Positions 36,889 to 64,000 of a stretch of 64,000 nucleotides of DNA are shown in pieces. How positions within the stretch are numbered: position 1 is the stretch's first letter; every line of letters starts with the position of its first letter. Origin of the DNA: Schizochytrium sp. TIO01. Lineage: Eukaryota > Sar > Bigyra > Thraustochytrida > Thraustochytriidae. Where the stretch lies: positions 1,570,001 through 1,634,000 of the forward strand of contig SMSO01000036.1 of NCBI GenBank assembly GCA_004764695.1. The letters are read 5' to 3'. A program made the translations under genes and the position numbers. The notes under the pieces were generated by a model that saw only the letters and a program-made list of their open reading frames with translations, searched no databases and had not been told where the DNA came from.

Positions 36889-37157
36889 GAATAATGCTAC
36901 TGCTGCTGTTGGTTTGCTCTTTGCTATGTTGCGTGCCAATGGCCAGTTCTAGTCAGCGAGCTTTGCTTCACGCGAGGTCCTTCGCAGCCCCGAGGTGGTT
37001 ACACGCGATGGTTCCACGTGCAATGTGTGCAAAAGAAATGAAACGTTCGGGTCTCCACATGCAACTCAGCGTATCTGCCGCCATCAGAGGGGACAGATGA
37101 TATCAGTCCAAGCGCACTTTCCTTCTTTGCTTTTTGTTGGTTTTCTTTATCTTTCAC

Positions 37158-37200
37158 TTTGTTTGTTTATTTGTTATTTATTTGTTTGTTTGTTTGTTGC
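37158..37200. repeat. (TTTG)n tract
   Basis: Imperfect tandem TTTG/TTTA units lie in noncoding DNA. Confidence 0.85.
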
Positions 37201-42302: not shown

Positions 42303-42680
42303 ATGGTGGTCAAGACCAACGTGTGCGCGTACACTGAGTTCAAGATCTACCCTGGCCACGGCATCAAGTTCGTGCGCAAGGATGGTCAGCCGCTCGACTT
42401 CATCAATTCCAAGGCCAAGTCCCTGTACCACCAGCGCATCAAGCCCAACAAGCTGACCTGGACCACCGGCTGGAGGCGGCTTAACAAGAAGGACAAGCGC
42501 GACGACGGTAAGCGCATCCGCCGGCGGAAGATTGCCGCCAAGCAGAAGCCTTTTGAGGGCATGTCTCTTGACCTTCTCAAGAAGAAGCGTGACCCCAAGG
42601 AGAAGTCCGCTGCCCGCGACGCCGCCGCCAAGGAGGTGCAGGCCCGCCAGAAGATGTCCAAGAAGACCATCAAGAAATAA
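42303..42680 (+). CDS. RPL24: 60S ribosomal protein eL24
   Basis: This is a 125-aa single exon starting at AAGATGGTG. The N-terminal domain has the family hallmarks: FKIYPGHGIKFVRKDG, NSKAKSLYHQR and KLTWTTGWRRLNKK. A basic helical C-terminus follows (KRIRRRKIAAKQKPFEGMSL). The protein sits on the large subunit near an inter-subunit bridge. The zinc-binding cysteines of archaeal and some eukaryotic eL24 are absent (one Cys only), as also in yeast. The product is somewhat shorter than typical 150-160-aa homologues, with a truncated C-terminal tail. Codons are strongly biased to C- or G-ending (AAG, GTC, CGC, ACC), unlike most neighbours, as expected of a highly expressed gene. Inverted CCAAT motifs lie ~150 and ~315 bp upstream. 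Confidence 0.96.
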   Translation: MVVKTNVCAYTEFKIYPGHGIKFVRKDGQPLDFINSKAKSLYHQRIKPNKLTWTTGWRRLNKKDKRDDGKRIRRRKIAAKQKPFEGMSLDLLKKKRDPKEKSAARDAAAKEVQARQKMSKKTIKK

Positions 42681-44952
42681 GTAAGTGATCTTCTTTGATT
42701 TACCTAGTTCGTTCCTTTCTTCGATCGTGATCAGAGCCTGATTCGGCTCGAGACATCTCGCGAGGACAGCTTGTCCGGGTGCATTTAATCATGATTGCGT
42801 GCATCCATTTTTTCTTTCATATGGAGTGAGTTTGTGGCGTACATCATCACTGGCGTACTCACACTGGCGGAATATCGTCGGTGCAAAATATGGAGGAATA
42901 GATGGATGAATGTCTTCATACAGGCACCTATCTTCAACCTCGTGGGCGATCTCGCTCAGATGAGTGTGAGTGAATAAGGTGTTAAGGAGTTACATGAATG
43001 AATGAACGAATGATGCGTGAGCTCCTGCTTGTCTGTATGTCATGGAGACGGCCGCGCTCATCGTCGCTCGTGCTGCCTACTTTATTACTCTTGGATGCCG
43101 CTGCAGATGCATTTTGGCACCCTCTATACCCACATGCTTCATCTATATTCTAAGGTCAGCCTTTAACCCCATCCCCCACCTCATATACTTTTTCTTGTTT
43201 CTTTCGTTGACGCGATGCGACTAGTACACCTGTCGCTGATTCTCACAAAATCGAATGCGCTACTATTTTCTTGTGCCTTGAACTTGATACTTAGATTTCT
43301 TTCTCTGATTGCGGGTGTAATTTCCTTCTCGCTTTCCTCAGAGGAGAACTTGACTTGTTTCTTTTATTTGTACAAGGTTTTGTCTTTCTACTTCGAGCAT
43401 ACGTTGTCCTGCTGCTCTGTTATTCCTCTGTCCATTAAACTCATTAGTACATAATAGAGGTACTATATGGCGTCATCAAGTCCTTGCTCGTAAAACAAGT
43501 TTGGGTAGCCAGCACTTGATCCTTTTACATGAAGTAGTACGAGGTACTCTACAATGGAAGGCCTGTACAAGGACAAGTAGGTAGTAAATTGTAAACTAAA
43601 TACATGAAGTATCCATAAACAAAAACCAAACAGAGCTCATCATAGGAAGCTTTTTAATTTGAAGTATTCCATTACATTTACAATAGTTGTATTATATCAA
43701 ATTTTGTAAATCATTCAGGTTAGTGCCTCATTTTATTTCGGACGTTCTTTGAAGCAAGGAAAATCCCCCCAACGAATGCTCCGACCTACTTGCCGTCGTT
43801 GGCGAATGAAATCGTAAGTGATGGACTAGTGCTATCCTCGCCATACTCTTTGAGCTTTAGGTTCACGTTGTTTAGTACATACACGAGTTATCAGAGTGTC
43901 ATCCAGCGCGGAGCTGCCTCTTCAGCTGATAAGAACAAGAAAAACGATATAACAGATTATTAAACGAAATTCTGTATTTGAGACTTTGCTTAAGTATGTA
44001 TCATGATAAATGACTGTAAAGATGATACTGAAGAGTACTTGGGTAAATGTCCTCCTTTCGAGAGGAGTCCCAATGGTAGACTGGCAGACATGGTGGTTTA
44101 CGAACATATTCTAGACGTTCAATCATTCCAAATAAAGTCTGCCGAATTGGAGAGACAGCTTCGTTTCGCAAAAACATCGAGTGTTCTATTCAACAGAAGA
44201 GGAAATTACTATAAATTGCTAAGATCTATTCCAAAGCTTTCCACGAATTCAGAAGAACAGATTATGATTGTTATATGTGATAGCTCATATGTTAAGTTAA
44301 TATATTTAGCATTTCGTGCTTACTTGCTGAAATTATAAAAAAACACCATCCTAGTTTTTGCGTTTGAAATCTCTTTTTTGGTGCTGTGAATTGTAGATTG
44401 TGCTTCCTTTGATTTTATAGTACAGTTCATTGGTGCACTTAGTCAAAATTGGAGTTCGGCTGTCTCGCACGAAATCTTATAGGCTTATTTCAAATGAATA
44501 TGTAATGCATGAATTAGCGAAATATAACGGTTAGCAGTGAGGTGTTTTGTAAGTGCTTGGTTGGGAGGCTACTATGTGTCTTTTCAAATAACGTATTGAT
44601 TGAGACAGTTTTAACACCAAGCTTATGCACCAAAAGGCAATTATCCAACCTACAAGAGGAGAATTTCCTTGCAAGTGGTAGAGCGAAGAAAATAGTCAGA
44701 TAGTCTAATTGAAGGAAAACTGTACTAAGCTATTCCGGCGCTTTGAGATTATCCTGGGTGATAGTAATGCGTTTCTTTAACACACAAAGTGCAGTTTAAC
44801 ATGTCCATTCTAGGATATCGAATTAGGCTGAAGATCACGCAGAGGTTTTAATACATATTTAAATGCCCACACTTGAGGAAAAGATATTAAATAAAAAGTT
44901 TTGCATGTTGACAAGGATGTGACAAATGAAATAGAGGATAATGATGGGTGCT
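42681..44952. other. Intergenic region between eL24 and the RING gene
   Basis: The eL24 3' UTR is followed by AT-rich DNA. Small frames with hydrophobic residues at 42795-43454 lack motifs. One 111-codon ORF is listed separately. No other feature was seen. Confidence 0.45.
44003..44338 (+). CDS. Orphan ORF, 111 aa (weak)
   Basis: An ATG-started frame with mixed composition sits in AT-rich DNA: it starts MINDCKDDTEEYLGKCPP and includes VQSFQIKSAELERQLRFAK. There is no signal peptide, motif or recognised family. Its codon use is not obviously random, but its length is within chance expectation for such DNA. A remnant of a larger gene is possible. Confidence 0.25.
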   Translation: MINDCKDDTEEYLGKCPPFERSPNGRLADMVVYEHILDVQSFQIKSAELERQLRFAKTSSVLFNRRGNYYKLLRSIPKLSTNSEEQIMIVICDSSYVKLIYLAFRAYLLKL

Positions 44953-45967
44953 CTAAGCATCCTGGTTTCTGCGCCGCTCACGTTCGCGTTCTCGTCTTTC
45001 CCGTTGTTCTTGGACGCCTGGATTGTTCCAAGGTGATAATGAGACAAAGAAAAGCCAGACCATCATCACCATCTCACGGAAAGTTGCCCACACTGTTTCG
45101 GGATTTGGAATCCACTGTAAAACCTGATTTGCAAACGAGGTCTCCCAGTTTGCTCTTTCTGCATCGGGGTCATGCCGGGGCGTAGCCATCATTTTATAAA
45201 CTCTATGGTGTGATGTTTGCTGCTTAGTAGGAAGTGACGGATACTTTACGACGAGCTCATTCCAGTCTTTGAGAAGAACACCTCCTTTCCCCATAACTTT
45301 TGCTTTTTGAGGTGAAATATCGAAAACATGATCAATTAGATGCTGGTAAGGTAAACCTCAAGCAGGTATCGTTAGTAGATCAAGGTGACGTCAAAGCTCA
45401 GATTCTAATTATCTCCACTTACCTGAACAGATTCTTTGGGTTGCAAAGCTAGACACCAGCGTACTCCAGCGAAATCAAGTTCGACATAGCGATCAAAAGG
45501 TTGAGTGTTATGCTCAGGCTGTGGAGTAGATTGGAGTCTACGAATACGTTGGCGACACAGAGGACAGCGAGCAAGACCTGCTAATCTAAGTTTCCAGACA
45601 TTCTGAACAGCGCAATTGGCTGCATAAAGTTTGATCATTGGGAATTCATTATTCATCAAAGATGGTGAGAATGTCAGTAAGGGTGTGACTATAGTTGTAT
45701 TAAAATTATGCCATACGTACCGCACATGGGGTGATTACAACTGCCCAAGGACGCCACCGGGCGTTGTAAGTCTAACAAGCAAATGCAACATACTTCATGA
45801 TCGTCAGAAGCATCGGACTTGTAAGTACTGGTGAAGTCTGTCCTCGTGTCTGACAACAATATCTTTCTTTGCTCGTTATTGAAAGTGTCACATTCATCTT
45901 CTGGTACCGCTTGGTCCTCATGAATATCCTCTTCTTCCCCAGACGTTGCAACGATGCGCCTTCGCAT
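44953..45967 (-). CDS. RING finger - ubiquitin-like domain - membrane helix protein (three exons)
   Basis: Assembled from splice sites: exon 1 45967-45721 (donor GTACGT), exon 2 45619-45423 (acceptor TATGCAG, donor GTAAGT), exon 3 45342-44953 (acceptor TTACCAG). Introns are 101 and 80 bp, phases match, and the product is 277 aa. The first junction falls inside the RING and restores it exactly: Cys60, Cys63, Cys77, His79, Cys82, Cys85, Cys101, Cys104 (C-x2-C-x13-C-x-H-x2-C-x2-C-x15-C-x2-C, a C3HC4 RING). The second junction joins DFAGVRWCLALQPKESVQ to HLIDHVFDISPQKAKVMGKG, a ubiquitin-like fold pattern at about 125-190. A hydrophobic segment (MVMMVWLFFVSLS) and a very basic Arg/Glu tail close the protein. 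Such proteins are usually membrane-anchored E3 ubiquitin ligases. The partner and target are unknown. Extra 5' exons are possible. Confidence 0.78.
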
Positions 45968-48900
45968 GATAGCAAGCAACAAGTTACAGCTATTCGAGCA
46001 GCTGCAACGTTTGTAAAGTGGCCTGCACAGTATGAAGCTTTAGGCCGATACCGAGGTTTGCCAGGTTCAGGTCCTCGCGTAACTTCTGACAGTGGTCTTG
46101 CTGGATCCGCTTCGTGGAATAGTTGATGAAAAGAAGCGTTACTTACCTAGCTAATAGTAGATGCCTAGTACTCTCCCACTCTCAGCTACTTGCTCGTTCT
46201 GTTCTATTTGTTCTTCTAGAGTGTGCATAAAAGGTAAGAGAAGGGACAGGCATACATGGGTCTTGGTGGTGCTCGGCAAAGTCCTTTGATACCGCAAATG
46301 AGACCGTAAGCGTGCGTTGAGTTGTATTTTAAGGTTCATCCAAGAGCAATTAATTGAAGCGATAAACAAACAAGTGTATAACGTAGAATATTTGTAAGTG
46401 AGCGAGTGAAGGGCTAAGTGGTCGCACGCACGATCACAAAACGTTTATGTTGCGTTCAAGCATCACTCTTGCTGCAAGCACCTGAAGCTGCGAAGGTGGG
46501 TAGTAAAGGAGGCAAAGTTAGCACGGTTGAGGACTGTGAGCGAGATGGGGCTGAGAAAGTGCAATTTCCTTTTCTTGCTTATGATTCTCGATTGTGTTTG
46601 ATGCGTTTTGAGACGTATGGGTGGCGGAGGTGGAAACAATTGATTGCTTTGAAAGGCCAAGCAGCCTCGTTTTCTTTTTTCTTTGCTCATTTTCTCTTTC
46701 AACTACTCTCCACTGATTTACCCCCACACCAAATTAAGCTCAAGATTCATTGTAAGCTTGGTGTATCGTGTCTCTGGGTTTTGCAAAATTGCGAGTGATA
46801 GGTCGTGACTATGAGTAACCACACTCGCTAGTTCGTTTCAAATTTTCTCGTCGTATACTCTCTCCATGAACAGATCGTCAGATAAGATTACGCACACCTT
46901 AGTGCTTTCTAGTCGCAGCATTTTGGGTTATGCAAGATAAAAGAATCCATTAGACTCCTCTGTACGACAAGCAAGTTAATGAGTGATCCTTTGTTCTCTC
47001 GAAAGATACATAAACTTATTGGTATAGTGACGTTACGATTCGACACTCGTCCTATAACTGTTGATAAAATACTGTTGTAGCAAATTTCTGGGCGCACATT
47101 CACAAAGCTTTATGTTATCATTTGACGAGCTTTCTCTCTGTTGCAGGCCTCAATAAGAGCTCAATCATGGAAATTTAGGGTTTTCTCTCTCATAGCATCA
47201 GCCCATCTATCACCTGCGAGGAAAGCATTTCATTTTCTCCCCGCACAGTTTAATTACATGCTTGCGGCTTTGTCTGCCCATAATATCTTTTCGATTTGCC
47301 CACATACCCAATAGTTTAAGAATCAATGCTGGGTTTGTGACAGAGGGCAAGTTTTCCTCTCATTTTTGGGTCCAAACAAGCAGAGCACAAAATGTAGCTA
47401 TGGGACCCCTTCATGACGCATTGAACTGACTCTTTATGCATACGCAGATTACCGTAGGGTCCAGTGGCGGGCGAGCGAGCGAATACCTGTTATGAAGGGA
47501 TAAGCGTGTGAAGCAAGCAGGGCTACCCTTGAGGGCGCAGAAATCGTGCGAAATGTGAAATTAATCTGCTGATCTTTCCTTTCATGCGCAGCTTTGCCCC
47601 AATGATTGTACACTACGGTTCGTTTACCGATAGTTCGGGTCTGGCAGTCGTTTACGACTCATCGTACATGTACCGTTCTTTTCCTACTAGCCCTAATAAG
47701 TAGGTAAGTACACCTTTGCCTCCCTACTAGTAGAGAATGTCAGGGACCAGAACAGCTGATCAGCAGGTCTCTGGCAAACTCTGCTCTAGCCATGCGCCAA
47801 AGGCGCCATGTGCAGTTTTGCCATGGCCCCGTCCTTCAGTATGCTTCGTCGCGCGTTTCTTCGCAGGTTCGCAAAACCCAATCCGGAGGGCTCGGTGGCG
47901 CTCCGTTTGGAGCTCTCTGTAGCGAAGGGGGGACAACTTGAGTCAGGGACACAGCAGAGACAGCTGCTGACCGTAGTCAATCAACTCCTAGAAGAACTGC
48001 TAAGGTTTGGGTTACAAGGGCGCGCCTTTCGAATTAGGCAGTCGAAGCAGGCGCTCGAGCAGCCACTTCCTCCCACAGACTTGCCCTTGTGGGTGGCCGA
48101 TCTCGGGAGAGCTGACTGAGGTGCGTTGCCCATCCATGCTTCAGGCCAGTGCGCCCACTGCACGTACACGCACGGCATCGCCTCGTCTCGTGCATCCTGA
48201 TCGGGAGAGGGAGGTCCAGCTTCGCGGGCCGTCGATGCCCCGGGCCGCGGGCGGACCCAAGTGCAATGTCCGCAGAGGCGGCGCATGGCATGCATGCATG
48301 CGCCGCGCTGTCTCCTCGCTCGCTCGACTCACATTTGGGTTTCTGTGGACAAAGCGCCGCGAATATTACAAAAACGTCGGCTTGAACCGTAATATAGAAA
48401 GAAAGCCATAGAAACGGCCGCCCGCTACCTGGCTAGCTACTGGTATAGCTAGCAGTGCAGCTCCTAGCGCCAGCTAGCTTCGCATACAGTGATCCTTCGA
48501 GCGCCACATTGGCTGGCCCCACGAGCGCACGGAGCGCCGCGAAAAGCACCGAAGACTGAGCACAAGGCGCCGATTGGGGCTTGTGGCGAGCTGCACTGCG
48601 CTGCGTGTTGTTTGGCTGGAGGCTGGCTGACTCTTCTGCACCTGGCTGGCTGGCTGGCTGCCGCCCTCTGTCGCGGGGATTGGGGTGCCGTGGAGGGCAG
48701 GCAAGCTTGCTTCTGCAGCTGTCCTGGGCAGCAGCAGCGATCGATGGCCTCGAGGTCGCTGGTCGCGGTTTCTTGTGACGAGGACTGGGGCCGGTTCGAA
48801 GAACGCGGAGGTGTGCGAAGCAGTGTGGACAGTCAGTCCTTCAGAGAGCTCGCTAGGGACCCGGGGCGATCGCACGGAGTCGGCGAGGAAAGGAACGCGC

Positions 48901-51900
48901 GAAGAAAAGTCTTTGGCGCCACGACTTGAGAGCGAACTTCGAGTTCGTTTGTGCCACAGTGAACGGTGGTACCCACGGCTTTTCAGGCAGGCGCTTTTCA
49001 GGCGCTTTTCAGGCGCGTTTCAGGCGAGGGGCTCTTGCTTCAAGCCGGGGCAAGCACGCTAACCTGCAAAGGGCAGACGTGATGCGGCGGCAGGAGCCAC
49101 ACGTCGTGGCCACTCACTGTAATAACGAGCATGGACGAGGGCTCAACGAACGTGCTCCGGAGTCCGCCGGTTCTTCAGATACACAGGCCTCGGGCGTGGT
49201 TTTGGGCGGCTGATGCACGGTCGCTCAAACCGGCTCACTGACTCACACTCTCTCACTCTCTCAGCTCAGTCCTTGCTCAGTTATGACGTGGCGGTGTGAA
49301 AGACTTTCGGAGAACCCAAACTCGAACAACAGCCATTGGAAAAAGCAATTTCAAGCTCTCTCTCACTCTCTCTCTGTCAATCGATCAACTCCTAAACAAG
49401 AAGTCGCAGTTCTTTCAAGCAAGAGAAGAAGACGAGAGCCCATTGATGGTACGTAGAGATAGACAGAGTAGAGAGTGGAGAGAGAGAGAAAGAAAGAGTG
49501 TGTGCGCCTCCTCCAGCTAGGAGACACAGCGGCGGTCTTAGAGAGCAACAGAAAAAAGAAGTATTTCAACAGCAGAAGTGCCGAGTGATTGGGTGATTAG
49601 GAGGATATCCTGAAAGATGAGTCGTCAGCTTCGTCGTCCCCAGAGCCTCTCTGTTTCTCGCCAACGTAACGCACGCGCGCAATTCATTCCACTTCATTTC
49701 ATTTCCTCGTCTTTCTGAAATTATTGTTGCTCTCAATTTTTCTGCTTGATGCAGCGTATCTTTGTTCTTTCTTTTCCCCCCCCTGCTTTTTCAGGATAAA
49801 AATAAAACTCGTGTACATAGGGCTGTAGTAGGGCACTCAGTTGGTAGGTACCACCTTAAATCTATAGTAACTTGGGTAAAAACTTGAACTCAAGCCACAA
49901 CAAAGAGAAAAACTTACTACCTCTGACTAATGAGAGTGCTACCGTATATAGCTAGCTGCTCCAGGTTGAGATCTTGCTACGGCTGATGCACATGCTAATG
50001 CCTACGTAGTACGCGGTAGGTAGGTAATGCCGTGACTGGGAGCATGACGCTTATTCGGGTAAAATCACCTATGAAACTCTACGGAAAGTACTAATGAGGA
50101 GTTAAGCTAAAGAGCGGCTGACAATTGTAGCTGGAGCTAGGAAATACTCAATAACATAGTTTTGTGAGCTATTTCTGCGAAGTAGTTTGCTAGTTAGCAC
50201 CAACAATCCGTACTCGATACCCCCCACCCCTTTCCAGGAGAACCGAGTGTACCGTATCTTCTGCAATAAGCCTCACCCGCGAGAGGGTTAGATAGTGAGT
50301 GTTTCAGGGCTAGATCCACTGCTGACTGCCACATTTTATTTCTAAAGATACTGGCACACCTACGTAGCTAGCTAGCTAAGTACCTACCTTCAAAAACGGG
50401 AAGTTTGACAACCACAGGCCACAGGAACTCGAAGGGATGTCTCAAAAACCATAGTCATGATAACCACGATTGACAGCAGCACCATCAATTTGTTTCATGG
50501 GCCACTGGCGATCACGATGTTGAATGCATTTTGATGATGGTTATGGATCACGAAAACAAAGTGGAAGAAAGTATGAAAATATACGTATACTATCTGTATC
50601 TAGCTAGTCACTATCAAACACTACGTAGCTAGCAGGTAAGTAGCAATATAGGTTGCTTGCTAACGAATTCAAGGGTTCGCAGGAATGCGCGGTGTCCGGT
50701 ATGAACGGGCGAGTAGCGGAGGAAAATAATCTGAGCGGTTGTGGGCCTCGCTTTATGAGAGCAGATAAAGGAATGGTTTGTACCCCCCCCTTCCGCACTG
50801 TCGATGTATGGTTAAGAGGGTGGAGAGGGGAACACGAGGGAACTTTTTGGTGAGTGATATTTTCTTCATTATCATTTTCTCTCTCTAGCTAGCTATAGTC
50901 AGAGCAAAGCTGAGCCCTTGGAATATGGAAGAAGAGCTCTGCTACTTATCGGAAGTGTTTCATCATGAAGCACTTTAGAGGTTTGTTTGTTCATTTATTT
51001 GTTTAATTGTATGGCTCTTCCTTCTGTGCCCCCCTATTTTCGCTCTGGTCCGGGTTCCTAGCTTCCAACGACCTTTCTTCTCGAAGAACCGGACGATCGT
51101 CCAGAGGGCAAAAGAGCACTCCGAGGAGTCGTGGAAATGACAGACAGGCCAGGTACTACTAGATACTAGCTAATAGATACTATCAGCTGCCCTGAGCAGA
51201 GAAAACTCGGGGAATTCTCTTCCTTTAAGTTCTGAGGAGCCAAAGAACGGCCGTCTCTGATCCTAACTAGTCCTATCGCCATGGAAAAAGAAAGAAAGGA
51301 ATGCTCTCAACAAAATAATCCGAAATTTCGATGGCCGCCGCGAGGATAATGGAGCTTAGAACTCCCCAAAGATCCTGCAGTCCTACTGTTAACAATATCT
51401 GGCGCTGTAGTATAAAACCCGCTCTCTGTGGAACTCCAGTAGGTAGTAGCCAATACTAGTCATGGTGGTAGATTTGGCTGCCCACTGCAGGGGACTGTGG
51501 GGAGTAGTCCCCAGGTTTGAAAAGCTGTTGAGATTTCGAGTTTTCTGACTCTTTGGTAAAATTTGAAATTACGTGCCGCTCGGGCGACCTCGCAGACGGT
51601 AGCGAGGCAATCACTATCGTCGAGACGTCAGATGCCACTCGCGAGAGTCAGGTTCGTCTTATTTCTACTTTTTGCTTCGTCACTGGCGGGAGAGCAGCTT
51701 TGGCAGCAGCAGGGGTCAGCGGCGGGAAGTCTTAATTCCCTCGCAAATTCGAGCTCGCAAGCACGTGAAGGCGCATTTGCTTCATCCATCGCGATGCATT
51801 TCGGTTTGCATTGCATTCAAAGCTGGGACTTGCGAAGATAAGATGGAAAGGGCCATTTTGAACGGGCCGCGTCCAAAACCTTGCAAGGATAAGCAATTAA

Positions 51901-54079
51901 TTCTTCTCTTCTGCAACCTCGCAGCCAAATGCACTTGGGTTTATGCCTGCTCGGGAGCGTGTCTCTCTAGGTCTTCGAGCCTCTCTGCTGACGGGTCACG
52001 CGCAGAAAGCCCTCCCTGTCGGTTATGCGGCATGCCATAGTCCGGCTGGAAACACAAGAATCAAAGCCAGACTTTCCGGAGACAGTTTGTCTCTGGTAGA
52101 GCAAGGGCAATTAATGGCACGCACGACATTGGGTTGAGACCAAGCGGAGAGACAACGACTACTACTTGGCCATTGCAGCGTCAGAGGGTACAGAGCGTCG
52201 TGGGCGAGTTCTGCGGCAAATGTAACATCTGGAGAGAATCTAGAGACAAGGACTTAGAAGCGCACTGAGGAGGACTGCCCTCTCGCGGATCGGATCTTAC
52301 GCAGGAGCACAGGGAGAAGGGTTTGGATTTGCGAGTAGTTCTTACAGAGGAGGTCAATGCTTTGAGCTGCTTTGCGGTCAGCAGCAGAGATCTCTCTTCG
52401 ACGAACCACGAAGGACAGGGAAGAGAGTCCAACGCTGGAGAACTTAGCGGTTGGGAACACCGGGTCGAGCGCACGGGGCGTATGGGCAATGTAGGTTCTC
52501 TCGAAGGGCGTTTCTTTGCCTGGAATTTCAAGAAAGCTCTGCGCAGAGGTGCACAGTTAGCTCGACAAGAATCCTCCTGGAGATCCAGTACTTCTTCTTG
52601 CAAATTAGAGAGGGGGAAAGAGAGAAAGAGAGCAGGCTCGATCGAGTGAGGAGGAGTGCAGTGCAGTGATGGCCATTCTTTCTTGGGAGCGTGGTCTGCT
52701 TTTCGTGGCTTTCCCGTACGTATAATGAAGATGGACGGAGCGATCGGTGCAGATGGTATGGAGAGACCAATGTATTGGCTCGTGACGTGTTTGTCACCTG
52801 CTATTTCTATTTCTACCGCTGCCACCGCCGCTACTTGGACATTCGTTTGCAGTGCTACACTTGCATTGTTTGTGGTGAGCAAAGGCCCAGATCGTCAAGA
52901 ACTGGCGAAATGACTGACGTAGGCGTGTTCACTAAGGTCCCTACAGTTCATCTATCTGGTTAGCTTTTCAAGTAAGTGACCAGCTAGCTATAGCTTGGTA
53001 GTATGTAATCAAGCAAGGAAGTAAGAAAAGGCGAAGAGGTCGTTAGGTTGTGAGAGGGGGTATTTTAGAAGGGGGCTTGATCGAGAAGATGAGCTGCCAA
53101 AACTAGACTAAAGGTGCCTGTTTTTCTTCTAGCGTAGAGCTATTTAGGATCCTTCTTTTGTGCTCTAGTGAGCGCCTTTTCGTCCTTTGCTTCGTGGGTT
53201 TTGCCTGCGTTTCCACTACTGCATATATAATTTCCATTGATTCATGGATTTATTCATCATTTGTAGGTTAGCTACCTACAATTTGTTGGTTTTTTTCAAG
53301 TGTTTTATTTTATTTATTTACTGTACAAAGTATTAAAAAAATGGTGAAAATAAGAAGAAAAACCTGAACGTCAACAGCGAGCCGACAGCGATGAGAGCGG
53401 CCTTTAGCGAGGGTATAGATAGGTGCTAACAGAACACTTAGGTGGTGTACGTTCAAAGGACACGGTGGAAGATAATCCGTGGCAAAATGATATGGGGTGA
53501 AAAAGCCCGCGCTAGGAAAGGGCTATCAGAAGTTCTAGCAGTCAAACACTTCGTTTGGCTGTTAGGCAATTTCTGTTTTTTCAATATTATTTTTCTTTTT
53601 TAACAGGGTAGTTAAGATAGGGGGTAGACTAGACATATTGCTTGATCCCAACGAGGGTTGTGACTATGGATTTGATCAGTGTATGCTCACTTGGAAAGGG
53701 GTTATACAGGGAAGTAAGGAATGTCCAAAGTACCCCCCCCCCCTAACTTTTTTTCTTTTAATGCGACGGACGGAAAATGCTGTCTGCTGTTTCTAGCCAT
53801 TGCTCTAATTAGCGGAAACTATACTCTTTTGCTAACACCAGCTCATTATCTTTTGAAAAGTACAGATTGGAGCCTTTAAAGAGGTACCGTACTAACCAAG
53901 AGCAGGCGGAGCAAAGAAGAAGTTTTTTTTTTTATTTTTAAGTTTTTTTGTATTAATATAAAAAGAATAAAGACATCAGTGTGTGGAGAACAGGAAAGTT
54001 TAGGATAGAATGCTAGAAAGCAGTACTGCCCTAGCGAAGAGACACAGAAAAGAAACTAAGAAGAAAAGAGAAATAAATG
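45968..54079. other. Eight-kilobase region without a recognised gene
   Basis: Patchwork of AT-rich DNA with GC-rich islands at roughly 47740-49200 and 51550-52950. Open frames in the islands overlap on both strands and have no motif. Noncoding marks include CT-dinucleotide runs (49230-49380), short TTTTCAGGCGC tandem units near 48980-49025, repeated GCTAGC/TAGCTAG palindromes (48440, 49950, 50365, 50885, 52980) and a poly(C) run near 53730. A purine-rich block lies at 54010-54180. Spliced or noncoding genes could be present but cannot be supported. Confidence 0.4.
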
Positions 54080-54888
54080 ATAAAAAAAAAAGGAGGAGAA
54101 AAAGAAAACGAGCGCAGAGGGGGGGGGGGGCAGGAAGAGAAAAGGCACATAAAAAGAAATTAAAAAGACAAACAAACAGACGGCGGACGCGCTCGCGCAG
54201 AGAAACAAACACCCATCGCTCCTCTCTCCTCCCTCTGCTGAAGCTGGCGGCGTTAGGAGAGGCACCATAGGAGTTCACTAGACGCAGCTCCTAGTCGGCG
54301 CGTAGGAGGTCCTAGGCCCTGCCGGTAGCTGGGATCGCATAGGCCACAACTGGTGACACGTGCGAAACGTGCACTGTGACCCCCTTGTGAAAGTTACTCG
54401 TATATTATACCCCCCCTGACTTAGTCGGCGAAGCAGCGAGGGAAGCCCAGATAAGGGGCATCGCAAGCATTTAGCGCAAGGTAAGTCCCGCACGAAAGGT
54501 GCGTACACCCCGTTCTGTTTCTTGAGACTAGCTGGCTAGGGCTTGCTTTCCTGCCTTTGGCGAGGTGCCCTCGACGTGGAGGCGACGCTGGGAAGCAGCT
54601 GGGCGGACGGGTAGACGCTGGAGGCAGGTGTGGCTGCGCGCGGCTGGCAGCAGTATCGAGCGGCCGCCGCCGACCCGCGGAGGGCAGAAAGAAAGACAGA
54701 GGGCGAGGCGACAGACGGAAAGCGGCGAAAGAAAGTGCCGCCATAGAGAAGAAAGAACGTTCCAGGCCTTGGCGTGTTCTTTTCATCCTTCCTTGTTCCC
54801 GTTCCTGTCTCCAAAGGCGTTCTCTTGAGGCGCCCCCCCTTAGGCGAGTGCTTAGCCAGCTGGTAGAGCTGCCGAGGTTCGTTCTTTC

Positions 54889-55020
54889 GATCGATCGTCG
54901 GTTCGTTCTTTCGTTCGATCGATCGAGTGAGTGCCAAACAAAGCAATCGACCGATCGATCGATCGTTCATTCAATCGATCGATCAATCAATCGATCAATC
55001 AATCAATATACAGACGTCAT
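54889..55020. repeat. (GATC)n/(AATC)n tetranucleotide repeats, first cluster
   Basis: Interleaved runs of GATC, TTCG and AATC units with small interruptions. Confidence 0.85.
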
Positions 55021-55265
55021 ACGTGGATATACGTTCTTACAGCCAGCCATATAAAGAAGGGAAGAACGAGAAAAAAACTGACAAAGCGAGACAAACAGAC
55101 GGATCGACAGACGGATTGATTAAGCAGAAAGCAGCTGGCTCCGGAGCGGGCAGCAATATTCAATCGCCGCCGCCTGCCGAGCAAGCGAGCCGGCCATCGG
55201 GCACGCTGAGCAGAGCTGAGCAGAGCTGTGCTTGAGCTAGGAAGGTGCAGGCAGGGCGGCCCCGC

Positions 55266-55322
55266 CAATCGATCGATCGATCGGTTAATCAATCAATCAG
55301 CCAATCAATCAATCAATCAATC
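55266..55322. repeat. (GATC)n/(AATC)n repeats, second cluster
   Basis: GATCGATCGATCGG is followed by runs of AATC. Confidence 0.85.
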
Positions 55323-55572
55323 CATCGACTCTGAGTGAGTTAGTTCCCCCTCACATTCCTTCATTCATTCCTTCATTCATTCCGCATCACGTTCATCAGC
55401 CGTTCTCTCCGCGGTTCTTCCTCCCTCCCATCCGTTCTTTTTTCCGTTCTTTTACCCCACCACCAGTACCTAGCCGCGCGCTAGCGAGGGACTAGCGGCA
55501 GTAGCGGGGTCCTAGCGCGTCCCGCAAGATCAGTGCGCGGAAGCACCTTAAGCGAGGCACCTTAACTGAGTG

Positions 55573-55573
55573 C

Positions 55574-55607
<34 letters not shown>

Positions 55608-55608
55608 C
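55573..55608. repeat. (AAAG)n microsatellite
   Basis: Perfect tandem AAAG units in the leader zone. Confidence 0.92.
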
Positions 55609-55810
55609 TCTGAAGAGAGAGACAGAAAGAGAGAGAGAGTGAGTGGCGGCGAGGCGGAGCGGGTTTAGGGTAGGAGGCATTAGGGGTCCCGTAGGGGCTG
55701 CGGCGCGGGCTGGGAGAGGCAGGAAACAACTTCGCGGCGGCACCGCCTCGGCCAGGCAGGAGCGCGGTCGGCAGCAGCGGCAGCGGCAGCGGCAGCAGCG
55801 GCGGCAGGCA

Positions 55811-55831
55811 GTAAGTAAGTAAGTAAGTAAG
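55811..55831 (+). repeat. (GTAA)5 run, overlapping 5'-splice-site-like GTAAGT
   Basis: Tandem GTAAGTAAGTAAG makes several overlapping copies of the strongest splice-donor consensus, preceded by GGCA. It could be a cluster of alternative donors or chance repeat growth. Confidence 0.85.
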
Positions 55832-56050
55832 GAGCAGCGACGGCGAGAGGCCGGGCCGCAGAGGGAGCGCCGGCCGGGAGGAAGGGCGACAGCCAGCCAG
55901 CCCCGGCGATTCGGCACGCGAGAAAAAACTCAAACTAAGAAAGAAGAAGAAGTACGTGTAAAAGAAGAAAGCGGAGCGCATCGATCGAGACCAGCCCACG
56001 CACGAGGGCGGGCCTCGGAGCAGCGAGAGAAGGACGGCGAGCGGCAGACA

Positions 56051-56076
56051 GGCAGGCAGGCAGGCAGGCAGGCAGA
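56051..56076. repeat. (GGCA)n microsatellite
   Basis: Tandem GGCA units in the leader zone, with a second short run near 56125. Confidence 0.9.
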
Positions 56077-56710
56077 CAGGCAGGGCCCTGAGCAGCGAGC
56101 CGCAGCGGAAGGCCGAGCAGAGCCAGGCAGGCAGGCAGAAACTTTCCTGGAAAAGGCAAAAAGAACAGAAAGAACAGCGAACTGTGCCAAGCAGGGAGAG
56201 TGCGCCTGCTTACGCCGACCCGTTCTTTCTCCTGGTTGGCCTCCTGATCAAGGGAACATCAACTCGTGGGTCTGAAGGCGGAATAGACTCGGATTCTTTC
56301 AGTCCCTGTTCTACAATATAACATAGAAGAAGGGCACGAGAGGGTTTTTCCTCTTATTCCCCTCTCCTCTGTTTGTTTGTTCCTTTCTTTCTTTCACGGG
56401 TTGTTCTCTCGTGTTATTCTGGGGACACGTGGTCCGGTTTCGCGGAGCACACTGGGAGTGAGTGCCTGAGTGCCTGAGTCTCTTGAATCAAAGTCGAGAG
56501 TAAGAAAGAAAGAAAGATAGAAAGATAGAAAGAAAGCCCGTTCTCTGTCTCGTTGTTCGCTTCTGTTTTTGTTTTTCTTTCTTTCATTCTGTTCTTTCCT
56601 TTCCTCTCCTTTCCCTCCGGTCTTTTGCCTTCCTTCTTTCCTTCTCTTTTGTTTGTTTGTTTTCTTTTTTTCTTTTTTTCCCTTCGGCGCAGTTGAGGAG
56701 GTGGTAACGA

Positions 56711-56738
56711 ACTGACTGACTGACTGACTGACTGACTA
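56711..56738. repeat. (CTGA)n microsatellite
   Basis: Tandem CTGA units (ACTGACTGACTGACTG and on). Confidence 0.92.
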
Positions 56739-56880
56739 ACTATTACTAACTAACGAAGTACCTCAGCAATTAGTAAGGGAGAGGATCGACGGGAAGAAAG
56801 AGGGCAGCAAAAGCGGAAAAGGCGGTGGTTAGTGAGCCGCTTAGTCGCGTACTTAGTCAGGGAATCAGTTAGCGTAGCGT

Positions 56881-56898
56881 AGCGAGCGAGCGAGCGAG
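56881..56898. repeat. (GCGA)n microsatellite
   Basis: Tandem GCGA units (AGCGAGCGAGCGAGCGAG). Confidence 0.88.
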
Positions 56899-57736
56899 GA
56901 TCGTCGATCCCGTTTCAAATTCTAACGCAAGGCGGGCGGCTAGATCGATCATCCACGCTCCCTCCCGCTGCCTGGCTATCTCGTCCTGCCCGCTCCGGTG
57001 TCCTGGGCTTGCTTCTGTTTTCGTTATTGTTTCTGGTATTGTTGTTGTTTGTTTGTTTTTGTTGTTTTTTCCTCTCTCGAGAAGAAGCAGAGGTCATTTG
57101 TTTGTCTTTCTTAACAAGCGAGGTGGAGGGAAAAAAAAGGAGGAAAAACAGAGAGAAATACGAAAGGAGGTCGTAAGAAGCGGCTAGGAAAGACTACGGA
57201 AGAAGAAGAAGAAGCAGCAGCAGCGACGGGGTCGTGGAGAGGCAAGGGAGAGGAGGAGGAGGGCGAGCAGCAGCAGCAGCCGCGGCAAAAGCGAGGAGGG
57301 GGAAAAAACGGAGCACCCCTCGGTTCTTCCTCGCTCGTGTTCAGGTGGGTTCAACAGGCCAGCAAGGCCGTGCTCAAGGTTGTGAAGGGCGGCGAGAAGC
57401 AGCCGGGAGAACCAGCAACCGCGTCTGGCACGGACAGCCACGCGGGCTCTACCTGCAGCATCCGCGACGAGGTCTGCAGCAGCGAAGCAAAAGCTTCTTG
57501 TTCCTCTTGTTCCTCTTCTCCTTCTTCTCCATTTGCTGGGAACGTCTGCACGACGGACCGCGAGAATAAGAAGCCCAGCCAGCGCACGGTGCGCGGAAAG
57601 GGTTCAGCTACGATAGATCTTGAAGGACTTGAGGTGGTTGCGTCCAAGGAGGAAGTGGACAAGGAGGTGTCCGAGCAGACCTCCGGAGGCGTAGAACAAC
57701 AGATAGCGGTGGAGGCCTGCAGGGAGGCGCCTTCCC

Positions 57737-57826
57737 ATGCGCGGGGCGCGCCAGGTGACAAGCTCGTTGACCCCGAAGAACAACAGCCCCAACCTCCGAG
57801 CCAGGCGAATTCTGGCAAGGATATGA
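57737..57826 (+). CDS. Upstream ORF (29 codons) overlapping the p300/CBP start
   Basis: This is the first plus-strand ATG after 3.66 kb. It opens a 29-codon frame (starts MRGARQVTSSL) whose TGA overlaps the next ATG as ATGA (57823-57826). The arrangement would allow termination-reinitiation or leaky scanning to control the downstream protein. The peptide shows no motif. Whether it is translated is unknown. Confidence 0.4.
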   Translation: MRGARQVTSSLTPKNNSPNLRARRILARI

Positions 57827-60800
57827 GCGAGGGGCCCCAAGGTGCAGCTGCTCTAGATTTACCGACCAAGAAGGTAGCTTCTAACCAGAGTGCAGACGTG
57901 ACGCCCTCGCAGGCAGCAGCTTCGAAAGACTCGGAGCAGGAGCAGCCTGCTCCTGCATCGACCGCAGTGTTGAAAACCAGAAAGGCCGAGGACAGCCAAC
58001 AAAGCGGCGAGAATTTGAGCGGAGAACCAGGGCAGAATTGTCTCGAGTCTTCATCTAGCTCGCACGCAGATCTCACAAAAGCCAGAAAAGAGGGACCGGA
58101 AGCGGCCGTGTCAACTAGCACCACGACGCCGAAATCCACAACATCGCCATCGCAGCCAGCCCCGACGACTAGAACGACGGGCGTAGCCACGAGATCGTCG
58201 CCGCGGGCGGCGGCCGCGGCGGCGACGCAACAACAAGCCGTCGAGGGCAACAGCAAAACAAATTGCGCGCAACAGGTCACAACTGCAGAGGCAAGCAGCG
58301 AGGAAACCATGCTATCTGACCCACCTCCCGCAACCGCAGTTCCTGTGCGGGAGCCTGCTTCCGTCACAGAATCAAGCACAACAACTCCACAGCATCAACA
58401 AGCGGTCTCAAACGAAGTTAAGCAAGAGCCGGTATCAAATTCTGCTAATGCACCAACAGCAGGGACAACAGTTGACGCTGTTAGCGCACCGTCAGCACCC
58501 GATTCGCAGAAACAACAGTCCCAAGCAAGCAACCCGCAAAACTCCTCCGGAAATTCACAGGTTGCCGCCACTGCAACAATGCCAACAACAACAGCACCGC
58601 CAACAGCAAGTGCAGCAAACGCTAATGCGAAACCTGGACCAGGTCCTGCTGGGCACCCACAACAACAACAACAACAACAGCAACACACGCCACGATCAGG
58701 AGCAAATGCAGCATCGGCGCGGTCAACGCCTGCAAAATCACCTTCGACAGCGTCAGGTCCTAATACAAGTAATGGAACGGTTACTTCAAGTCCCGCACGA
58801 ACTATGAATAACCAGGTTCCATCACATGGTCACATGAAACAAGAATCTGTTGCACGGACTGCCTCTGCTGGATCAACGAATACAGCTAGCATGGCAAGGA
58901 CCCAGACGGCTCAACAGGCACCTGCTGCTGCAAATGGAACCATCTCTGGGGCCCAGGCAGCTGTATCACAAACGCAAGCCGCACGGACAACACCACCCGC
59001 ACAACATGCCCCACCCTCGGATGGGAAATGGCGAGTTGACGCACAGGCTGATGTGGAACCACGGAGAGTGGTCATTCAGCAAATTGTCAGCTTATTAGAG
59101 TCTTGCAAGCCCAAGGCTTTTGCGCGTCGCCATGAGAAGCTTGTGGATCTCGCACGAAGGCTTGAGGTTGCTCTCTATAAACAGTCCAAAACGAAGGAGG
59201 AGTACATGGATCAAAAAACGTTACGCCAGCGTGTGCGAGAACTCGCTAAGGCGAGCACAGCACAACAGCAGCAACAACAACAGAGGCAAGCGGGGCAACC
59301 CGCAGGTGGTGCAAGGGCTACACCTGCCGCTCGCCCTCAACAACCGTCAACAGCAGCGGCAGCACCCGCAGCACCCGCAGCTGCCTCTCATGTCAATACG
59401 AAACCGACTTCAAATGCACCAGCTGCCGCAGGTGTTACTGTTGCTAAACCACCATCGTCCCCTGCCGTGCAGGCTCCAGCAAATGCAGCCCATGAGATTA
59501 AGGCGCCCGTAGCTGCTGCATCGACTCATCCTGCTGTGAACTCAGCAGCTGCTGCAGCAGCCGCTCGCCAAGCTGCCTACACAAACCAGCAGCAACAGAG
59601 GGTTGCTGCTGCAGCCGCCGCCGCTTCAGCTGCGACGGCCAATGGTACACCTGCTGTTGCTATCCCCCCTAACGCTGCTGCGTATGAAGCAAAGGGTGCC
59701 GGTGATGTTCGTATTAAAGTGAAACCGCCTGCACCAGCGGGGGGCAGCCAGCAAGCAGCAGCCGTAGCGGCAATGCAGCAGCAGCAGCAACAACAACAAC
59801 AACAACAGGCTGCAGCTGCAGCTGCTGGTACCCGCCCAGCATCATCTTCAGCTCATGATAAGGAGCAAATTCTTAAACAAAGGCAACAACGTTTGTTGCT
59901 TTTGCGACATGCTAGTCGCTGTCAAAACCCCGAAGGCACTTGTAAAGTTACGGAGCTCTGTGGACGCATGAAACGTTTGTGGAAGCACATTTCCAAGTGT
60001 AAAGATCCTCGTTGTCCTGAACCTCATTGTGTATCATCTCGCTATGTATTGTCACATTACCATCGTTGCGAGAAAGAAGAATGCCCTGTTTGTAAACCTG
60101 TCCGCCTCATCTCAGCATCACAACGTAGTCAGGCTCTTGCTGCCCAGCGTAAGCAGCAACAACAATTACAGGGCCTTGGTCAGCCAAGTTCCGGTGGAGC
60201 TGTACAACCAGGAGTGGCAGTGGCGCCTAGTTCTTCTGCATCTTCAGCAGCTGCATCACAAACTGCTGTAACATCCCCAGCTGCTGCTGCTGCTGCTGCT
60301 CCGGTAGTCACAGGCGCAACCTCCACACCGAAGCTTGCAGCTGCAAGTACTGCTGTCCCTCCTGTTGTTTTGCGACGTCCCGATGGTAGTGTTGTCAATG
60401 ACCCGGCGGTTCTTGCAAGGTATAATAACCTCTCTAGGCAACAACAACAGGCCCTGGCATTGCGTCAACAACAACAGAGCAACCAGTTAGCATTGCAACG
60501 TCAGCGCGTTTTGCAGCAGCGGCAACAGCTGCTGGCAAAGGAACAACGTGCGCAGTTTCCAAATGCTATCGATCCAACTAAAGCTCGCCACTGTAAGTCT
60601 GGCACTGGGCCTTCTTTGCCGTTCAGTATGTCTCGTAGAAGCGTTGAAAAGCACATCGAATCTCTCCGTGTTGAACGATTGCAGCCAAACCTTCGCCCAC
60701 TCTTGCGAAAACTTATTGAACACAAATCCAACAAAGGCATTTACAATGCCCCTGTGGATTGGAAGGCCATGAATATTCCGGACTATCCACGAATTATCAA

Positions 60801-63800
60801 AACTCCAATGGATCTTGGCACAATTCGCAAGCGTCTTGATGCTTCCTATTACACAACCCTGGACCAATTTAAAAACGACATTGTGCTTACTTTCAAGAAT
60901 GCAATGACCTTTAACCCTCCTGAAAATGAGTACCATACACGTGCTGCAGACTTGCTCAAGGTAGCACATAAAGAGTTTCCGCTGATCCTAAACAAGATTG
61001 AGCGAAATGGCAGGCCCAAAAACCAAGACTGTCAGCTTTGTCGTCAATCTGTTTGTGAACAATGTCCTTTATGTGAGCGGGGCTGCATTCCTTTCCAGCC
61101 GAAACTCCTATTTTGCTCGGGAACCTGTGGCAAACGTATCCAGCCCAATAGCGTATACTATACGGGTGTTGGGTACAACTATTGCTGGTGCAGTGACTGT
61201 TATGACAAAGCTCGTACCGGTGTTCTTTCAGTTAATGGCCAGTCCTATAACAAAGACAGTTTGACAAAGAAAAAGAACAACGAACTTTACGGTGAGCCTT
61301 GGGTATCCTGTGATAAATGTGACCGCTGGGTGCATCAGATTTGTGCGCTATTCAACTCACGTAAGAACAGCCTCACATCCTCACAGGATTACATTTGCCC
61401 TCTCTGTCTCATCGAGGAATCAAAACTTGGTGAAATAGAACGAGCAAACGAGTCCAAGTCCAAGTCTGGTGGAGGCAAGAAGGCAGCAGCTGCAGCAACT
61501 GAGGAAACTAAACCCAAGCCTGAACAGGCTACTGTAGCGAAAGATGCCAAGGATGAAAAGCCAACTACAGGAGACGATGCTACACGTGCGAAGGGAAAGT
61601 ACAAGCATTTTGTCCTTCCTGCTGGCAAGCGGGTACCGAGTGCAAGAGAGCTTGATCAATCTCGCCTTGGCGTATTTCTGGAAAAATGGCTTCGTAACTG
61701 TATTACTGAATTCCGCACTAGGGAGATGGAGCGCAAACCTGACATTTCTGACTATGAGCTTGGACCTGATGCGGACAAACTGCATGTTCGCATCCTGTCC
61801 AATTTTGATGAAAAGTGCCAGGTGAAGCCTTTTGTGAAACGACTTATCCCGGAGTATCCTGATGCTTTTCCATTCCGTTCACGTTGTATTTTCTTGTTCC
61901 AAGAACTCAATGGTGTTGACGTTCTCTTCTTTGCAATGTTTGTCCAAGAATACGGATCTGAGTGCCCTGAACCGAACCGTCGCAAGATTTACATCGCTTA
62001 CCTTGATTCTGTGTATTATTTCCAACCCCGCAGAATGCGTACAACCGTGTATCATGAGCTTCTTCTCGGGTATCTTGAATACATGCGTCGCATGGGCATG
62101 ACATCAACGTACATTTGGGCATGTCCTCCTCCTAACAAACGTGATGATTACATTATCCACTGCCATCCTGAAGATCAGCGTGTGCAAACACCTGAACGTT
62201 TACGAAAATGGTATCATGATATGATCAAGGTTGGTGCTGATCGAAGGATTTTTATGGGTTCGTGTGCTATGTTTGAGGAGCACTTCGAAGGTTCTGCTCG
62301 TACAAACCAGAAGAAGAGCAAATCTAAATCTAAAAAGCGCTCGAGCAAGTCTAAGTCCAAGTCTAAGTCAAAGAGCAGCAAAAAGGGAAAGAAGAGTAGT
62401 GGTCGAAAGGGTACCTCAACACGCCGTGTGAGCGGAGCAGCTGCCGCGGCTGCTGCTGCTGCTGCTGCTGCTGCCGAAGCAAAAGCAGCTGCCGAGGCCG
62501 CAGAGGCAGAGACTGAAGCGAAGAACGGGGACGGCGAAAACGAGAATAACGAGGATGACAATAACGATGAGGCACTTGGACTTCTTGCTGATGTTCCCGA
62601 TATGGACGGTGATGATGATGAGGAAGACGATGATGCGAACACCGAAGCAAAGGCGACACCTGAAGATGGCGTTCCGCTGAGTGAAGCAGACAAAGCTAAA
62701 GCCATTGCTGAGGCTGCAGGTGTTACTTTTCTTACACCAGCCAATGGGGTTCGTGCTGGTGATGATCGCATGCTTGCAGAAGACTTGGAACGCCGAAAGC
62801 TTACGAAACTTGCTGCTTCCGGTAATTTGCCTTACTTTGAGGGCGATTACTGGCCTCAAGAAGCCGAAGAACTTGCGAAGGAGCGTGCTAGACAAAAGAA
62901 GAAGGATGAAGATGGAAAGGGTGGTCGTAGTAAGCGAAAGCGTCGTCGCGCTGGGGAAGAAGCTGAAGAAAAGACCGAAGAAGCTGAACCTGAGGAAAAA
63001 CCTGTTGCAGAACTTGCTGTTGAGCTTTCTGAAGAGGAGGCTGTAGAGGCTCGTGTTCAACTAATGCAGCGACTTGCCCAACAACTTGAGGTCATGAAGG
63101 ATGATTTCCTGGTTGTCAAAATGGCGCACGAGTGCTCCCGATGCGGAAAGTATCTGCTTCGGGGACGATGGGAATGCCGCCATCCTTCATGCCTTGAGGA
63201 GTTCGGCTTTAATAAATCTTGTCCATTCGCTCTGTGTAATAGTTGCTACATTCTCGAATCGAAACGCCCAAAGGAACAACAACACGGTGGAGGTTGTATT
63301 GCTGATGGTGAAGCTGGTAGGCCAAAATCTGTTTCAGAAGAAGCGGACAAGGACGCTGGTAAAGACCAGGAGGTGATCGACGTAAACGTTGAGTTCAAAC
63401 GCAAGGAGCGCGAGCGCGAAGAGAAGGATGCTAGAGAAAAGGCAAAACGCGATGCTGAGATTAAAAAGAAGAAGGAGGCCAGAGAAAAAGCAAACGGCAA
63501 CCCTGATCAGAAGAAGGTCAAAGTAGAGGCTTCTGCAGCCGATGCTAAAGAGGCTACAGCTGGAAACTCTTCCGCACCATCAGCATTAGGGGATACTTCA
63601 AAGAGCTTGGGTAGCGAGGTGGCAAACTTGGAGATGAAGAAAGAGCCTGGCGATAATACAAAATCTGTTAGTGCTTCCGGGTCTGTAAAACGCAGCGCTC
63701 CGGAGAGCACTTCGGTAGTCAAACCAATTTCTTCATCTTCCGTCTCTGAAACGAAGGTAGATCCACCAGCAAAGCCGAATGGATTGTCCCGAGCAAAAGA

Positions 63801-64000
63801 GGTGAATAATGAAGCTAAGAAGGCAGAATCGTCGCCGGCAGCTGCTGTGGAAGTTGATGAGCAGAGCCAGCAGGTAGTGAAGAAGCAAAAGGTCTCAGAA
63901 ACCTCGTCCAAGGTAATTGAAACCTCGGCTAACAGTTCTTCAACCACTCAGGCTGGGGACAAAACCAAGTCACAAGACGAGAAAGGAATAACAAACAAGG
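57823..64000 (+). CDS. p300/CBP-type histone acetyltransferase (runs off window)
   Basis: An uninterrupted frame runs to the window edge (at least 2059 codons from the first in-frame ATG). Order of domains: Ser/Thr/Gln/Ala-rich disorder; KIX-like helices at ~403-478 (KWRVDAQADVEPRRVVIQQI start); TAZ zinc finger ~680-765 with HASRCQNPEGTC and CGRMKRLWKHISKC; bromodomain ~938-1060 with PMDLGTIRKRL and acetyl-lysine-binding Asn1031 in TFNPP; RING/PHD ~1067-1197 (WVSCDKCDRWVHQIC); KAT11 acetyltransferase ~1261-1490 with IWACPP (Trp1432) and LRKWYHDM (Tyr1464), matching the p300 substrate-tunnel Trp and catalytic Tyr; basic Ser/Lys and poly-Ala/acidic linkers; ZZ finger ~1771-1810 (HECSRCGKYL). 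A second TAZ probably lies beyond the edge. It acetylates histones and factors as a transcriptional co-activator. The frame is open back to 57115 without an ATG, so a non-AUG or spliced longer N-terminus remains possible. Confidence 0.93.
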   Translation, partial: MSEGPQGAAALDLPTKKVASNQSADVTPSQAAASKDSEQEQPAPASTAVLKTRKAEDSQQSGENLSGEPGQNCLESSSSSHADLTKARKEGPEAAVSTSTTTPKSTTSPSQPAPTTRTTGVATRSSPRAAAAAATQQQAVEGNSKTNCAQQVTTAEASSEETMLSDPPPATAVPVREPASVTESSTTTPQHQQAVSNEVKQEPVSNSANAPTAGTTVDAVSAPSAPDSQKQQSQASNPQNSSGNSQVAATATMPTTTAPPTASAANANAKPGPGPAGHPQQQQQQQQHTPRSGANAASARSTPAKSPSTASGPNTSNGTVTSSPARTMNNQVPSHGHMKQESVARTASAGSTNTASMARTQTAQQAPAAANGTISGAQAAVSQTQAARTTPPAQHAPPSDGKWRVDAQADVEPRRVVIQQIVSLLESCKPKAFARRHEKLVDLARRLEVALYKQSKTKEEYMDQKTLRQRVRELAKASTAQQQQQQQRQAGQPAGGARATPAARPQQPSTAAAAPAAPAAASHVNTKPTSNAPAAAGVTVAKPPSSPAVQAPANAAHEIKAPVAAASTHPAVNSAAAAAAARQAAYTNQQQQRVAAAAAAASAATANGTPAVAIPPNAAAYEAKGAGDVRIKVKPPAPAGGSQQAAAVAAMQQQQQQQQQQQAAAAAAGTRPASSSAHDKEQILKQRQQRLLLLRHASRCQNPEGTCKVTELCGRMKRLWKHISKCKDPRCPEPHCVSSRYVLSHYHRCEKEECPVCKPVRLISASQRSQALAAQRKQQQQLQGLGQPSSGGAVQPGVAVAPSSSASSAAASQTAVTSPAAAAAAAPVVTGATSTPKLAAASTAVPPVVLRRPDGSVVNDPAVLARYNNLSRQQQQALALRQQQQSNQLALQRQRVLQQRQQLLAKEQRAQFPNAIDPTKARHCKSGTGPSLPFSMSRRSVEKHIESLRVERLQPNLRPLLRKLIEHKSNKGIYNAPVDWKAMNIPDYPRIIKTPMDLGTIRKRLDASYYTTLDQFKNDIVLTFKNAMTFNPPENEYHTRAADLLKVAHKEFPLILNKIERNGRPKNQDCQLCRQSVCEQCPLCERGCIPFQPKLLFCSGTCGKRIQPNSVYYTGVGYNYCWCSDCYDKARTGVLSVNGQSYNKDSLTKKKNNELYGEPWVSCDKCDRWVHQICALFNSRKNSLTSSQDYICPLCLIEESKLGEIERANESKSKSGGGKKAAAAATEETKPKPEQATVAKDAKDEKPTTGDDATRAKGKYKHFVLPAGKRVPSARELDQSRLGVFLEKWLRNCITEFRTREMERKPDISDYELGPDADKLHVRILSNFDEKCQVKPFVKRLIPEYPDAFPFRSRCIFLFQELNGVDVLFFAMFVQEYGSECPEPNRRKIYIAYLDSVYYFQPRRMRTTVYHELLLGYLEYMRRMGMTSTYIWACPPPNKRDDYIIHCHPEDQRVQTPERLRKWYHDMIKVGADRRIFMGSCAMFEEHFEGSARTNQKKSKSKSKKRSSKSKSKSKSKSSKKGKKSSGRKGTSTRRVSGAAAAAAAAAAAAAEAKAAAEAAEAETEAKNGDGENENNEDDNNDEALGLLADVPDMDGDDDEEDDDANTEAKATPEDGVPLSEADKAKAIAEAAGVTFLTPANGVRAGDDRMLAEDLERRKLTKLAASGNLPYFEGDYWPQEAEELAKERARQKKKDEDGKGGRSKRKRRRAGEEAEEKTEEAEPEEKPVAELAVELSEEEAVEARVQLMQRLAQQLEVMKDDFLVVKMAHECSRCGKYLLRGRWECRHPSCLEEFGFNKSCPFALCNSCYILESKRPKEQQHGGGCIADGEAGRPKSVSEEADKDAGKDQEVIDVNVEFKRKEREREEKDAREKAKRDAEIKKKKEAREKANGNPDQKKVKVEASAADAKEATAGNSSAPSALGDTSKSLGSEVANLEMKKEPGDNTKSVSASGSVKRSAPESTSVVKPISSSSVSETKVDPPAKPNGLSRAKEVNNEAKKAESSPAAAVEVDEQSQQVVKKQKVSETSSKVIETSANSSSTTQAGDKTKSQDEKGITNK
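62438..62475 (+). repeat. (GCT/GCC)n poly-alanine coding tract
   Basis: GCTGCTGCT-type triplet run in the p300/CBP gene encodes about 13 consecutive alanines between the acetyltransferase and ZZ regions. Confidence 0.85.

Follow-up and report, generated by a model that had tools for sequence, protein, structure and literature searches.

A gene for a p300/CBP-type co-activator in Schizochytrium sp. TIO01 is preceded on its coding strand by 3.66 kb in which ATG does not occur in any frame. The gene lies towards the end of a 64,000-nucleotide stretch of contig SMSO01000036.1 (the window; positions given without a locus or contig are those of its + strand), and the ATG-free zone occupies 54080 to 57736. 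We read this zone as the transcribed 5' leader of the gene, purged of AUG and scanned by ribosomes, together with the first part of an N-terminal coding extension, with translation of p300 probably starting at a near-cognate codon, and we put the probability of this reading at roughly 0.7.

An exact count over the 3,657 bases of the zone gave no ATG and 30 CAT, in agreement with the zero and about 30 reported by the original prediction, and the ATGs that bound the zone on the + strand are at 54077 and 57737. Across 1000 dinucleotide-preserving shuffles the zone yielded 22.1 ± 3.9 ATG, with a minimum of 9, and 25.2 ± 4.0 CAT; the tens of ATG that had been anticipated from base composition are thus expected, and a count of zero is not common. 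ATG was the only triplet with a count of 0, the next rarest being TAT (n = 15), and near-cognate codons were not avoided (CTG 64, with 43 expected by a Markov model; ACG 48; GTG 47). The loss is total, restricted to the coding strand, and affects ATG alone. As approximately 530 triplets in the zone sit one substitution away from ATG, its ATG-free state would have to be held by continuing selection. Within 244 kb of the genome, read on both strands, the second-longest ATG-free run was 1,159 bp; our genome sample consists of the window and the loci fetched or searched and covers less than 1% of 64 Mb, so that the zone is the longest run of this sample. We found no unusual RNA structure in the zone (mean z -0.18), no frame with the steady coding score of a coding or antisense gene inside it, only short simple-repeat matches when copies were sought elsewhere in the genome, and no relatives in viral_contigs. 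Separately, 3.66 kb windows lacking CCC on the + strand were observed at L011:3401-8457.

The identity of the downstream gene as p300/CBP, which had been proposed previously, agrees with its Pfam domains. Its reading frame is unbroken from 57115 to the end of the window (63999) and, read from its first in-frame ATG (57823..64000, + strand, running past the window), encodes a protein with TAZ (688-757), bromodomain (959-1041), PHD (1156-1195), and HAT (1315-1469) domains in that order. The HAT_KAT11 domain (PF08214) scored 109.3 bits against a cut-off of 22.5, while a KIX_2 match at 406-485 was weak (20.9 bits, below the cut-off of 25.6) and is described here as KIX-like. An own-genome search identified three more HAT_KAT11 genes.

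The ATG at 57737 is out of the p300 frame and is not supported as the start codon of p300, the earliest in-frame ATG being that at 57823. Instead, it opens an open reading frame (ORF) of 29 codons (57737..57826, + strand) in a weak context, with C at both -3 and +4, and the TGA of this ORF overlaps the ATG at 57823 as ATGA, an arrangement compatible with reinitiation. Among 36 reference starts from the same genome, A was found at -3 in 24 and G at +4 in 19; the context of 57823 scored below all 36 of them and that of 57737 below 35. Ahead of 57823, 236 codons are open in the p300 frame, a length equalled in 0.3% of same-region shuffles. The coding score of the last 240 nt (57583-57822) exceeds that of the median coding window, a value reached by 1.3% of open noncoding windows, and over its full length of about 700 nt the cumulative coding signal of the extension exceeds that of all 36 control genes, although in the controls no more than 300 nt of upstream sequence was read. 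A clear coding signal emerges only 3' of a candidate splice acceptor at 57344, and we annotate 57345..57822 (+ strand) as a probable N-terminal coding extension that lacks an in-frame ATG, based on its open frame and codon statistics.

Because this frame is open, its codon use is coding-like, and the contexts of 57823 and 57737 are poor, p300 probably starts at a non-AUG codon upstream of every in-frame AUG. Three in-frame near-cognates, ACG 57553, GTG 57589, and ATA 57613, score in the range of real starts, and further candidates lie upstream at ACG 57196 and ACG 57226; near-cognate matches in good context are not rare by chance. The N-termini of the paralogs were of no use in placing the start, as they consist of unrelated low-complexity sequence. 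Three ways of recovering an AUG start by splicing were considered and rejected. If translation began at 57737 in a short first exon, the best-fit intron would be one of 50 nt (57755-57804), which cuts p300-frame sequence that looks coding; an AT|G start divided by a splice junction is impossible in an ATG-free zone, since a GT donor after AT itself creates ATG; and an A|TG junction start has a single in-frame site, at which the acceptor is poor.

ATG-free runs also precede other genes, and as a general rule of this genome, followed in most cases, such runs end on the start ATG. At the two p300 paralogs of contig C13 the run measures 885 bp in one and 424 bp in the other and stops exactly at the first ATG; this pair agrees with the zone in avoiding ATG, while the run of the third paralog, on contig C6, is only 49 bp. 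At eight genes with Myb domains, which were the top of the search list and not chosen for long runs, the runs measured 392, 1069, 475, 815, at least 1424, 506, 66, and 1294 bp (Myb gene loci L045-L052 and L015:4090-5249; the run of at least 1,424 bp, at L049, extends to the limit of the retrieved sequence), and at seven of the eight no run in the 2.1 kb retrieved was longer than the one ending on the first in-frame ATG. Runs of 183-468 bp were found ahead of the start at 11 of 16 proteasome loci. Median runs were 660 bp for the Myb genes and 272 bp for the proteasome genes (Mann-Whitney p = 0.0005), in a comparison of small samples that does not extend to the whole genome. Fixed windows are free of the bias that comes with selecting runs; they contained 2 ATG against 19.7 expected from -400 to -200 of 11 regulator starts, and 2 against 13.0 expected from -100 to -50 of 26 ORFs in a random sample. 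Likewise, an ORF of 150 amino acids or more begins at the end of 23% of the ATG-free runs that measure 400-600 bp, compared with 0.5-3% of those below 400 bp. The p300 gene departs from the rule in that its zone ends on the out-of-frame ATG at 57737 and not on the start of the gene. There is good support for the earlier proposal of strand-specific selection against upstream starts in a scanned leader: ATG alone is depleted, on the coding strand only, and the rule recurs at these other genes, including the p300 paralogs. Long ATG-free runs are not confined to p300, as they also occur at the sampled Myb genes.

In the mechanism that we propose, transcription would begin near 54080 and ribosomes would enter at the cap and scan the whole leader. 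Any AUG met on the way would trigger initiation, and the leader would consequently be kept AUG-free by purifying selection. Initiation of p300 would occur at a near-cognate codon between approximately 57200 and 57620, and a shorter isoform could be produced from the AUG at 57823, which ribosomes would reach by passing the weak upstream ORF (uORF) at 57737 or after translating it. Going further, we suggest tentatively, and with more doubt than confidence, that first-AUG scanning is nearly leak-free in this lineage, that regulator leaders of one to several kb are AUG-free, and that p300/CBP is made without AUG from a near-cognate start that ribosomes reach by scanning over more than 3 kb.

Several points weigh against the zone being a scanned leader that ends in a non-AUG start. 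The extension gives a moderate coding signal, which over 300 nt places it about second among 37 upstream regions, and more than one near-cognate codon is a candidate start. Some of the 11 regulator loci in the fixed-window count had been chosen from genes whose long runs were already apparent. A TATA-like element may lie 5' of the zone (TATAAAAA, 53957..53964, + strand); this weak lead from the sequence would place the ATGs at 54010 and 54077 inside the transcript. Finally, a possible intron of 2,864 bases (54481..57344, + strand), predicted from an AAG|GTAAGT donor and a pyrimidine-rich TTCAG|G acceptor, would strip most of the zone from the mRNA. Its donor is perfect and its acceptor, the best in the zone, is the only YAG of 57000-57823 to be preceded by a strong pyrimidine tract; the emergence of a clear coding signal only past 57344 likewise favours a real splice site. 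In this alternative, an exon 1 of about 400 nt (54080-54480) would join exon 2 at 57345, and only some of the transcripts would include the ATG-free intron, either by retention or through alternative starts. Nothing would select against ATG in an ordinary intron, yet 0 were seen in the candidate against 16.8 expected; partial retention, or cap sites within the intron, would explain an intron without ATG. Splicing also supplies no start AUG: as there is no ATG in 54080-57736, spliced or not, 57737 remains the first ATG and the problem of the start codon persists. We consider a spliced leader unlikely.

The remaining alternatives concern the start codon and the statistics themselves. A conventional start at the AUG at 57823, reached by leaky scanning past 57737 or by reinitiation after the 29-codon uORF, would make the upstream open frame fortuitous; 57823 is the earliest in-frame ATG, the weak context of 57737 would ease bypass, and the overlapping uORF stop suits reinitiation. 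This possibility is a real one but doubtful, given a context poorer than any reference start at 57823, an upstream open frame that is rare in shuffles and coding-like in its codon use, and the finding that, at other genes of the genome, it is the start codon itself that closes a long ATG-free run. It is improbable that an assembly base error or recent mutation hides a true ATG within the extension. At least two conserved genes of the assembly show what looks like a frame break (a p300 paralog, L007/L004, and a PfaA-like polyunsaturated fatty acid synthase), suggesting some indel errors or pseudogenes, but the p300 frame is unbroken from 57115 to the end of the window with no direct sign of error, and the statistics of zero ATG are independent of single bases. 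Internal ribosome entry near the coding region, which would render the upstream leader irrelevant to translation, seems very improbable, as it would relax selection against upstream AUGs, yet their exclusion is total; we found no support for it. That chance or composition produced the zone, with ATG-less simple repeats mimicking depletion, has a negligible likelihood. The zone does hold many tetranucleotide arrays (for example GATC, AATC, AAAG, and GGCA), but when tandem arrays were masked 15.7 ATG were still expected and 0 seen, and CAT, the ATG of the other strand, was not depleted (22 seen, 16.2 expected). Together with the shuffles, masking rules out an artefact of composition or simple repeats.

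The proposed AUG-free leader of p300 resembles several known systems in part. In Neurospora crassa, the leader of cpc-1 is just over 700 nt and contains AUG uORFs, and near-cognates in the frame of its extension have been tested and shown in vitro to act as starts, some of them being conserved, with homologs in Pezizomycotina and Basidiomycota (PMC5487733). Both genes have an AUG-less in-frame extension with near-cognates, overlapped by an out-of-frame uORF that near-cognate initiation would bypass; they differ in that cpc-1 carries AUG uORFs in its leader of about 700 nt, while the putative p300 leader, recognized from its sequence, spans 3.66 kb without AUG. Long 5' untranslated regions (UTRs) in Candida albicans include those of UME6 (3,041 nt) and WOR1 (2,978 nt), as well as CZF1 and EFG1, and the UME6, WOR1, and EFG1 leaders modulate translation, those of UME6 and WOR1 lowering it (PMC6034079). 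Here too, the genome is compact and leaders of several kb belong to genes that act as master regulators of cell state. Effects of the Candida leaders on translation are demonstrated, whereas the p300 leader, with its total AUG avoidance, is a prediction from DNA. Another protist whose genome is compact and whose leaders are unusually long (median about 800 nt) is Toxoplasma gondii; there, upstream AUGs are not suppressed and around 90% of transcripts carry uORFs (PMC7854901), in contrast to the long ATG-free runs that precede many genes here. For eukaryotic 5' UTRs in general, a depletion of upstream AUGs is described by a Lynch-type model (PMC3283318), which invokes the same selective principle, the upstream AUG being the cost of a longer leader; usually, however, this is a statistical depletion that limits leader length, whereas the apparent leader here reaches 3.66 kb with none. 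What sets the proposed p300 leader apart is multi-kb length together with total AUG exclusion, a combination that recurs on a smaller scale at other regulators. A text search of the Aurantiochytrium literature returned nothing on transcription start data for the p300 gene.

As upstream AUGs are thought to limit the length of 5' leaders, a 3.66-kb leader without AUG would constitute a natural test of the reach of scanning. It would also test the strictness of first-AUG use, given that ATG-free runs at the sampled transcription-factor genes extend up to 1 kb or more. In practical terms, ATG-free runs offer an annotation-free finder of leaders and start codons in this genome, and they single out p300, the start of which breaks the rule.

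Several further observations were made in the window and elsewhere in the assembly. The 17 kb upstream of p300 (window positions 37000-54000) contain no open frame of more than 250 codons, and this region is either gene-poor or full of short exons. One of the p300 paralogs on C13 (L007:5759-9937 / L004:1162-3792, at approximately 635.5-642 kb) shows an apparent one-base frame change just 5' of its HAT domain, which reflects either a pseudogene or an assembly indel. The PfaA-like synthase (L027/L028; C4:608161-617209) is divided between two open frames, as would follow from a frame break within the region of its acyl carrier protein repeats. The presence of this synthase, together with a genome of 64 Mb in 37 contigs, agrees with the large genomes of thraustochytrids (PMC12258536). 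Lastly, identical mitochondrial-carrier matches of equal score were found at C16:10895-11431 and C31:8804554-8805090, as if contig C16 duplicated part of C31.
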